Program-made: the position numbers and the translations under genes
In this document: positions 45,155-51,512 of the stretch, in pieces
How the letters are laid out: each line of letters starts with the position of its first letter
How positions within the stretch are numbered: position 1 is the first letter of the stretch
DNA from: Stappia sp. MMSF_3263
GTDB taxonomy: Bacteria > Pseudomonadota > Alphaproteobacteria > Rhizobiales > Stappiaceae
Assembly (NCBI RefSeq): GCF_030733745.1
Contig: NZ_JASHIK010000007.1
Span: 124,001-188,000, forward strand
DNA length: 64,000 nt
Direction: 5' to 3'
The notes under the pieces: model-generated
Seen by the model: only the letters and a program-made list of their open reading frames with translations
What the model was told of the DNA's origin: nothing
The model's database searches: none

Positions 45155-46453
45155 ATGAAGGCAGCCGCAAAGGCGACGGCCAAATCGGCGAAATCGGGCG
45201 AGACACCGATGTTTGCCGGCTTCGAGTGGATGCTGGCCGGACGTTATCTGAGGTCTCGCCGCCGGGAGGCGTTCATCTCGGTCATCGCCGGCTTTTCGTT
45301 TGTCGGCATCATGCTCGGCGTCGCGACGCTGATCATCGTAATGGCCGTCATGAACGGGTTTCGCGGCGAGCTGCTTTCCAAGATCCTGGGCATCAACGGC
45401 CATCTGCTGATCCAGCCGATCGGCAGCGAGCTGGACGATTATGACGCCGTTGCGGCGCGGATCGAGAATCTCGAGGGTGTCACCTTCACCCTGCCGTTCG
45501 TCGAGGGGCAGGCATTGGTCTCCGGGCCTTCCGGCGCCTTCGGCGCGCTGGTGCGCGGCGTGCGCGAGACCGACCTGCGGCGACTGCCGCTTGTCTCCGA
45601 CACCGTCACTTCCGGCACGTTCGAGAATTTCGACAGCAGCACGGGGCTTGCCATCGGCACGCGCATGGCCCGCCAGCTCGGCGTTTCCGTTGGCGACACC
45701 ATCACGCTGGTCAGCCCGCGCGGCAATGTCACGGCGCTCGGCGTGACGCCCCGCGTCAAGGGCTACCCGATCAAGGCGATCTTCGAGATCGGAATGTCGG
45801 AATATGACGGCACCATCGCCTTCATGCCGCTTTCCGAGGCGCAGCTTTATTTCAACCAGGAAGGCATCGTCACCGGCATCGAGGTGTTCACCGACGATCC
45901 GGACAGCGTCGGGCGCATGCGCGAACTCGTCGAGGAGGGGGCCGGGCGTCCGGCCTTCGTCAGCGACTGGCGCTCGCGCAACATGACGTTCTTCTCCGCG
46001 CTGGAAGTGGAGCGCAACGTGATGTTCCTGATCCTGACGCTGATCGTGCTGGTGGCGGCGCTCAACATCATTTCCGGCATGACCATGCTGGTGAAGGACA
46101 AGGGGCGGGACATCGCCATCCTGCGCACGATGGGTGCGACGCGCGGCGCGGTGATGCGCATCTTCGTCATCACCGGCGCCAGCATCGGCATTGTCGGCAC
46201 GCTGGCGGGTTTCGCGCTCGGTCTCGTCGTCTGCCTCAATGTGGAAAGCATTCGCCAGGGCATTTCCTGGATGACCAGCACCGAGCTGTTCTCGCCCGAA
46301 CTGTATTTCCTCAGCCGGCTGCCGGCGGACATGGACACGGGCGAAACCATCACGGTCGTCGTCATGGCAATGGTGCTGTCGCTGCTGGCGACGCTCTATC
46401 CGGCCTGGCGCGCGGCACGGCTCGATCCCGTCGAGGCGCTCAGGTACGAATGA
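45155..46453 (+). CDS. lolC: Lipoprotein-releasing ABC transporter permease LolC/E
   Basis: Inner-membrane permease that extracts outer-membrane lipoproteins for transfer to LolA. 432 residues: an N-terminal cytoplasmic tail, helix 1 within [20 protein letters not shown], then the signature [21 protein letters not shown] large periplasmic domain and three C-terminal helices follow, with [20 protein letters not shown] (the coupling motif) and [19 protein letters not shown] at the end. Only one permease gene accompanies lolD, as in many alphaproteobacteria. GGAACGGGA precedes the ATG; a second ATG at 45209 is possible. It overlaps lolD by four bases. Confidence 0.95.
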
Positions 46454-47166
46454 CGATGACGATGGACCAGGACGACATCGAGGGCGCGGGCGGACTGCCG
46501 CTGGTGCTTGCCGGGATCAACCGGGGCTTCCGCGAAGGCGAGGGCAGGCTCGACATCCTGCGCGACGCCAATCTGGCCCTCCATCCGGGCGAGCTGGTGG
46601 CGCTGGTGGCGCCGTCGGGCGCGGGCAAGTCGACGCTTCTTCACATTGCCGGGCTGCTGGAGCGGCCGGACAGCGGCGAGATCTATATCGGCGGGCGCGC
46701 CTGCGGCACCATGGAAGATGCCGACCGCACCCGCATTCGCCGCAACGAGGTCGGTTTCGTCTACCAGTTCCATCATCTCCTGCCGGAATTCACGGCGCTG
46801 GAGAATCTGATGATGCCGCAGCTGATCCGCGGGCTCGACAAGCGCGAGGCGCGCGAACGGGCAAGCCAGCTGCTCGACTACATGCGGCTCGGCCAGCGCG
46901 CGGATCACCGGCCCTCGGAACTGTCCGGCGGCGAGCAGCAGCGCGTCGCCATCGCCCGGGCCGTGGCCAATGCGCCGCGCGTTCTGCTCGCCGACGAGCC
47001 GACCGGCAATCTCGACCCCGTGACCTCCGCCTATGTGTTCGATGCGCTCGTCGCGCTGGTTCGGGCCTCGGGACTGGCGGCGCTGATCGCCACGCACAAC
47101 ATGGAGCTGGCGGGCAAGATGGACCGGCGGATCACGCTCAAGGACCAGCAGATCGTCGAACTCTGA
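46450..47166 (+). CDS. lolD: Lipoprotein-releasing ABC transporter ATPase LolD
   Basis: Cytoplasmic ATPase of the Lol export complex. 238 residues with Walker [18 protein letters not shown], the Q-loop [20 protein letters not shown], signature [19 protein letters not shown] and Walker [14 protein letters not shown] terminal H-loop [12 protein letters not shown] follows. The [10 protein letters not shown]-loop is typical of LolD/MacB-type ATPases. Its ATG overlaps the lolC stop (ATGA), so both are made together. Confidence 0.97.
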
Positions 47167-47296
47167 CGAGGGCGCGCGCCAACCCCGCGCCCGCTCCGGT
47201 CTTCGTGCTTGCGGTGCTTGCACAATCAGCCCCGGACCGCGCCCTTGTTCCGGCCACCACATGCGCCGGGCGCGTGTGGTCGGGTGCGGGGGAACC

Positions 47297-47363
47297 GGCC
47301 TGATCATAGGGGCCTGACCAGACGGGCCTGATGAGCGGGCCTGACCAGCGGACCCGATCATGC
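47297..47363. repeat. Five degenerate 13-14 bp tandem repeats
   Basis: Units of the form GGCCTGAtCAtagg, GGCCTGAccagacg, GGCCTGAtgagcg, GGCCTGAccagcg and a diverged GACCCGAtcatgc lie head to tail. Located 130 bases after lolD in a 535-base gap with no gene up to the 38-codon ORF. Function unknown; copy number may vary between strains. Confidence 0.7.
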
Positions 47364-47637
47364 CACCCGGGCAAGGCCTGTGGCGCAGGGTGCGGCTTGC
47401 GTGCGTCCCGCGCATCCTTCTTCCTCTGCGATCATCGACATGCGCTCCGGCACTGGTCGCGGGCATGGCGGCTGCGTGTCCGGCGTCTGCCTGCGCCCGC
47501 TTGCGCGGCTTCCGAGCGTGCTGCGACCGATCCCATGGGCCCGCCTGTCAGCGCCTTGGTCGTGCCGTTTGCTTCCGGCCGGCACCTGCCGGTTTAACCT
47601 CCCGATAACCATCGCCCGCATGCGTTTCGAGGGAGGG

Positions 47638-47666
47638 TTGTAAAAAGAACAAAACATGAACATACT
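47638..47666 (+). promoter_or_regulatory. Promoter overlapped by a LexA-type (GAAC-N7-GAAC) box
   Basis: TTGTAA at 47638-47643 and CATACT at 47661-47666, 17 bases apart, form a plausible promoter in an unusually AT-rich patch. The spacer holds GAACAAAACATGAAC at 47647-47661, a perfect match to the alphaproteobacterial LexA operator GAAC-N7-GAAC. Bound LexA would cover the promoter. Chance matches to eight fixed bases are expected about twice in a 64-kb window, so position, not the match alone, is the argument. Confidence 0.55.
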
Positions 47667-47701
47667 ACGGAAATCGAGAGTTTGGAACGCGGGAGGGCAC
47701 C

Positions 47702-47818
47702 ATGTTCAACGACATTCGGGAAACGTTCCAGGACCTGATGGCGCTCGGCGCCCTGATGCTGTTCGGGGTGACGATGCTGCTGTGGAGCGACGCCTTGGCG
47801 GAGCTCTTCCTGGCCTGA
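47702..47818 (+). CDS. Small 38-residue membrane protein, candidate SOS-induced
   Basis: A short ORF with GGGAGGG five bases before its ATG, the best ribosome site in this gap. The peptide begins MFNDIRETFQDL and continues as a hydrophobic helix from about residue 12 to 29 (LMALGALMLFGVTMLLW), ending SDALAELFLA. This predicts one inner-membrane span with a short amphipathic N-terminus. A promoter overlapped by a LexA box lies about 36 bases upstream. Caulobacter SidA, a small membrane division inhibitor, has the same design of an SOS box driving a tiny membrane protein; homology is not shown. A longer overlapping frame from 47656 is Arg/Gly-rich and looks like noise. Confidence 0.6.
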   Translation: MFNDIRETFQDLMALGALMLFGVTMLLWSDALAELFLA

Positions 47819-48071
47819 GCGCGGGCCTGTCCGCGCACATCGCCGTTGCTGGCTGGGGACGGCCTTGCGGCAACTGGGGACGGTTCGCCGCCTGGTCTCG
47901 ACATCGGGCGGGCGAGAACCGACACTGACCGCCTGGCATCCGGGCGTGTGGCATCTGGATGCCGTCACGCGCGCCTTGTCCGACCGGCATGCGGGTGCCC
48001 CGGCCTTGTGGCTGCGCGGGCGCCGCGTCTGCCGGGGGCGGGCGGGCCGAGCAACGCGGTGGTGCAGGCAC

Positions 48072-51512
<3,441 letters not shown>

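Follow-up and report, generated by a model that had tools for sequence, protein, structure and literature searches.

SidA of Caulobacter crescentus (CCNA_02004; PMC10769358) is described as an inner-membrane protein of 29 residues that interacts with FtsW and acts as a protein (PMC4211646). An AlphaFold 3 model from 2026, which is not of high confidence, places it on TM7 of FtsW (PMC13396833). The dnaE gene of this species is given as CC1926 (PMC1839093) and the LexA operator of Caulobacter as GTTCN7GTTC (PMC9578287). Further small membrane proteins are reported to act on the septal synthesis complex. These include the SOS-induced YneA, SosA and ChiZ of Gram-positive bacteria and DidA of Caulobacter (PMC13396833, PMC4211646), the last of which is SOS-independent (PMC4211646).

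The DNA before dnaE was read in 30 of 199 Caulobacteraceae genomes, a sample chosen by the authors. The genomes are taken to be Caulobacteraceae on the basis of a CtrA sequence, to which seven genomes showed 100% identity. An ORF of 29 codons ends about 50 nt before dnaE, and its product aligns over the full length (1–29 of 29) with the family NF033228 (div_inhib_SidA) at 72.3 bits (cut-off 35). NF033228 passed its cut-off in eight of ten Caulobacteraceae genomes tested, in each case no more than 75 nt from the dnaE match, and stayed below it in the other two; it also passed in one of 14 control genomes. In 25 of the 30 loci, the 700 nt before dnaE contain a strict GAAC-N7-GAAC box.

The peptide gene and its promoter in the window

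The window is the whole stretch of 64,000 nucleotides that was analysed, and all features described here are on its forward strand. A 38-codon ORF (47702–47818) is located upstream of dnaE (48072–51512), a gene name that comes from the sequence-only reading and from matches across the class. SidA of C. crescentus (NF033228) likewise lies directly 5' of dnaE, has a LexA-type box and contains one hydrophobic span. The ORF with one hydrophobic span had been proposed from the letters, and the ORF listing, conservation, HMMs and an AlphaFold2 model agree on a putative single-helix, SidA-like membrane peptide. In the model, helices are predicted for residues 2–27 and 29–37 with a mean pLDDT of 94.2.

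The LexA-type operator GAACAAAACATGAAC (47647–47661) lies within the promoter. It fills the 17-base spacer between the −35 hexamer TTGTAA (47638–47643) and the −10 hexamer CATACT (47661–47666), and its last base is shared with CATACT. This arrangement had been claimed in the sequence-only reading and all positions were found as given. The start codon follows 35 bases 3' of the −10 hexamer. The putative ribosome-binding site GGGAGGG (47691–47697) is also present, but it ends four bases before the ATG at 47702 and not five, as the same reading had it. A strict sigma-70 scan called no promoter at the ORF, yet both hexamers are conserved in relatives.

Upstream, a lolD-like gene (46450–47166) carries the name given in the sequence-only reading, which was assigned without a family search. 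The stretch between this gene and the promoter contains a stem that resembles a terminator, with T-rich sequence after it (47398–47415; three overlapping matches, 0.9 expected). The peptide gene may therefore be transcribed apart from the lolD-like gene.

GAAC-N7-GAAC occurs five times in the window, 1.6 matches being expected, and three of 100 shuffles of the window reach as many. The GAACAAAACATGAAC box alone is thus weak evidence, in line with the caution of the sequence-only reading that about two chance boxes are to be expected in a window this long.

When an A is added at its end, the pattern is found 29 times in the genome (5.02 Mb), compared with eight times when it is read backwards. 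One box, GAACGAAAATGGAACA, is found 116 nt before the recA ORF (RecA confirmed by Pfam). Another, GAACATATCAGGAACA, lies between the divergent genes ssb (SSB confirmed by Pfam) and a neighbour that we take to be uvrA from its protein sequence. A third, GAACAAGCCGGGAAC, starts 255 nt before the first ATG of the LexA_DNA_bind gene; the sole match to this domain over the cut-off is located about 9 kb beyond the window. Judged by these positions, GAAC-N7-GAAC (GTTC-N7-GTTC) is the box type of the genome's own SOS genes.

Boxes are also found at other genes. The 16-mer GAACATATCAGGAACA of the ssb/uvrA box recurs in identical form across the predicted start of a gene for a radical SAM protein (L010 and L015), and GAACAAAGAGTGAACA overlaps that of a methyladenine glycosylase gene (L009, G000:C11:252741-252756). 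The box GAACGAAAAAAGAACA (L020, G000:C33:236759-236774) is located about 57–120 nt upstream of a gene whose product has a GapR-like DNA-binding domain. It would be unexpected for LexA to control a GapR homologue, as this position might indicate.

Conservation in the family and similarity to SidA

Missing conservation of ORF or box in close relatives would have refuted the sequence-only reading; both are conserved. The ORF was matched in 86 of 87 genomes of the window's family at E≤0.001 with an alignment of 20 family peptides as query, a count that is partly circular because the query was built from members of this family. With the single window protein as query, a match at E≤1 was obtained in 62 of the 87 genomes. 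All 86 loci were read and dnaE is downstream of the ORF in each of them; of the first 30 loci retrieved, 26 have a lolD-like gene upstream. A strict box is present at most 130 nt upstream of the ORF in 77 of the 86 loci, and eight of the remaining nine have a box with one mismatch. The ninth locus (G026) has no one-mismatch box either, and its peptide is interrupted by an in-frame TAG. This genome belongs to genus g6, as does G027, which gave no match; both cases are perhaps gene losses.

Alignment of the 77 promoters on the strict box showed that a TTGCAA-like hexamer and a CATAnT hexamer are kept 17 bases apart. The frequencies in the −35 hexamer are T 0.90, T 0.84, G 0.84, C 0.73, A 0.88 and A 0.87.

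The pN/pS ratio is 0.19 in the ORF frame (607 pairs), compared with 1.53 (600 pairs) and 2.07 (571 pairs) off frame, all pairs being drawn from related sequences that are not independent. Inside the window's genus the ratio is 0.24 (25 pairs). According to these ratios, the ORF frame is under purifying selection that is frame-specific. Conserved ORF, box and frame together support the reading as a putative LexA-controlled small membrane protein.

In 41 of the 77 strict-box loci, a third GAAC half-site precedes the box at a distance of exactly 22 bp, or about two turns of the helix. It is present in all 38 loci of genus g7 and all three of g3 and in none of the 14 of the window's genus. An additional LexA subunit may bind there.

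Searches of NCBIfam and Pfam with the window ORF gave nothing at E≤1. In the window's genome, NF033228 did not match the ORF, nor did it match the counterpart in five other genomes of the family. Assignment as a SidA equivalog (NF033228 above 35 bits) was thus rejected, and the ORF is filed as a remote, positional homologue of SidA. It falls within a wider grouping made in the present analysis, SidA-like peptides before dnaE. The grouping takes in ORFs of about 28–38 codons that lie before dnaE and encode a single hydrophobic span, and the window ORF is one of them; its similarity to SidA exceeds composition and a LexA-type operator is recognised by sequence in its promoter. SidA and the window peptide have an R-[DE]...A...F pattern in common, in register from the N-terminus. 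SidA has 29 residues and the window peptide 38, i.e. nine more.

HMMs that were never trained on SidA were built in four rounds, with the window's family only in round 0 and Hyphomicrobiales matches added in later rounds. At E≤0.01 they matched the Caulobacteraceae peptide in 6, 14, 14 and 10 of the 30 loci and missed the other 16–24. No antisense or dnaE-internal ORF reached this threshold (best value in the last round 0.42) and none of the reversed peptides matched; one antisense control ORF reached E≤0.1 in round 0. When SidA matches were admitted to training, 27 of the 30 loci were found, a result that is circular.

A profile-profile alignment with SidA is colinear with a score of 22.3, which none of 200 column permutations reached (hand-picked peptides). 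Without the start Met the score is 20.2, again unmatched in 150 permutations. Under a stricter null, in which hydrophobic columns alone are permuted, the similarity is weaker: the observed score was reached in four of 150 permutations for the family, in one of 150 for Rhizobiaceae and in one of 150 for both together. Because of these permutations, similarity alone does not place the relationship beyond doubt. Similarity, place and control taken together make common descent of the window ORF and SidA likely. The sequence-only reading had offered SidA as an analogy; the matches of NF033228 in Caulobacteraceae, the HMMs and the profile alignment go further and make remote homology at a shared locus likely.

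Occurrence before dnaE in Hyphomicrobiales and the class

One genome from each of 51 other families of Hyphomicrobiales was surveyed; 50 had a dnaE match and 48 loci were read. A strict GAAC box within 700 nt before dnaE is present in 26 of the 48 loci, an HMM match in 22 and both in 20. The first 700 nt of dnaE itself contain no box in any of the 30 loci with enough sequence. For the class, 102 of 260 dnaE-positive genomes (289 searched) were read; they came from the upper part of the score range, in most cases with one genome for each family, and reduced genomes are therefore under-sampled. Of 101 loci, 18 have a GAAC box and ten an HMM match, and boxes in GTTC orientation are present at a background-like level (8/101). 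In a rule-based count that includes the window, 25 of 102 loci have a box of either orientation and 16 have a box together with a hydrophobic ORF. A universal class-wide gene was rejected on the GAAC box and HMM counts. As far as sequence patterns indicate, relatives with LexA-type boxes before dnaE occur in roughly one in two of the sampled Hyphomicrobiales families and are patchy elsewhere.

In the family that contains Ensifer (f24), 133 of 199 genomes gave a match at E≤0.01 with a query that included one row from this family itself. Among the best 30 loci, a strict box is found within 200 nt in 28 and dnaE is downstream in 25; one locus of f24 (L409) is a false match. Inspection of the loci from named records that are nearest to an Ensifer-type DnaE (best 80 of 530) showed the peptide pattern before dnaE in all 80 and a strict box within 700 nt in 68.

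Sinorhizobium meliloti 4H41 (L448) encodes a relative of 28 residues, MADFVRDLAAFASMSLFIVSISVIALGL, before dnaE. It is preceded by two overlapping boxes, GAACAAAATTAGAAC and GAACAAAAAGGGAAC, with one half-site in common. Such double boxes (GAAC-N7-GAAC-N7-GAAC) stand before the peptide at L448, L442, L443, L463 and L473, e.g. in S. meliloti and S. medicae. Ribosome profiling of S. meliloti in unstressed log-phase cultures is reported to have detected a translated ORF, sORF25, in the 5'-UTR of dnaE1 (PMC10117765). The terms "SOS" and "LexA" are absent from the main text of that article. sORF25 occupies the same place as the 28-residue relative with its overlapping LexA-type boxes in strain 4H41, and by position the two are presumably the same ORF.

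The presence of a SidA lineage across much of Hyphomicrobiales, with a fixed place before dnaE and unannotated by the families searched, seems to be new. This is said with respect to the literature on SidA outside Caulobacter, on the Caulobacter locus and on LexA and dnaE in the class.

Possible role of the peptide and its link to dnaE

The ORF quite probably encodes a LexA-repressed, single-span inner-membrane division inhibitor of SidA descent that acts on FtsW/FtsN. In the undamaged cell, LexA would occupy the box between the −35 and −10 hexamers and block RNA polymerase. Damage would lead to RecA-driven cleavage of LexA, freeing the promoter, and the resulting message would allow the short membrane peptide to be made at once. 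After insertion into the membrane, the peptide would, like SidA, bind the late divisome (FtsW/FtsN) and delay constriction until repair. With the SidA lineage as its origin, the simplest reading is that the peptide inhibits division at the FtsW/FtsN step. By analogy, the peptide likely works in the same way as YneA, SosA, ChiZ and DidA; the likeness concerns the way of working and implies no relation in sequence. It would thus be nothing new in kind and would belong, as a remote member, to the small membrane division inhibitors that are induced in the SOS response.

A LexA-controlled peptide of the SidA lineage could have changed its target, e.g. to envelope synthesis or lipoprotein export instead of FtsW/FtsN. 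The window peptide departs strongly from SidA in its C-terminal half, with W-S-D and a charged tail where SidA has its FVWMMC core, and the forms of Rhizobiaceae stop after 28 residues. However, the N-terminal half, the place and the control are retained jointly across large distances. This suggests a retained role; a changed target is rather unlikely.

It is improbable that the ORF is a leader peptide (uORF), translated to regulate the expression of dnaE and with an amino-acid sequence that serves this end. The place before dnaE is constant, and a uORF role has been suggested for 5'-UTR sORFs such as sORF25 in S. meliloti (PMC10117765). Furthermore, no promoter-like or terminator-like site was found in the 253-nt gap between ORF and dnaE in the window (47819–48071). 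On the other hand, the membrane helix is strongly conserved in its amino acids and the distance to dnaE varies from 33 to 527 nt in the window's family, which argues against a leader peptide. Folding of the gap RNA is no stronger than that of shuffles (z −1.33), and the Caulobacter gene at this place is SidA, which is described as acting as a protein (PMC4211646).

Size, single helix and LexA-type box would also fit an SOS-induced membrane toxin of the TisB/DinQ type, which would act by depolarising the membrane and slowing growth and would have no target in the divisome. This reading is very improbable, as similarity and position tie the peptide to SidA. In addition, an Rfam search of 47100–48300 gave no match up to E 1, a result that covers known RNA families, while an unknown antisense RNA would escape it. 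A chance box before a spurious ORF, conceivable with about two box matches expected per window, is rejected by the family-wide conservation of box and ORF and by the frame-specific purifying selection, and its probability is negligible.

The proposed division inhibitor of SidA descent may share its control with dnaE. Such common control would be compatible with the sequence, because no promoter-like or terminator-like site was found in the gap. Tentatively, SidA might be no peculiarity of Caulobacter but a branch of an ancient checkpoint gene of Alphaproteobacteria that was retained before dnaE. A single LexA-controlled transcript could then halt division and raise the supply of replicative polymerase, and the gene could be an unrecognised SOS division inhibitor of rhizobia and many other Hyphomicrobiales.

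The peptide is a concrete and genetically simple candidate for an SOS division inhibitor in Sinorhizobium, Ensifer, Rhizobium, Shinella and the window's family. Its relatives provide many natural variants for mapping which parts of SidA touch FtsW. The locus also raises the question of why the gene stayed beside the replicative polymerase.
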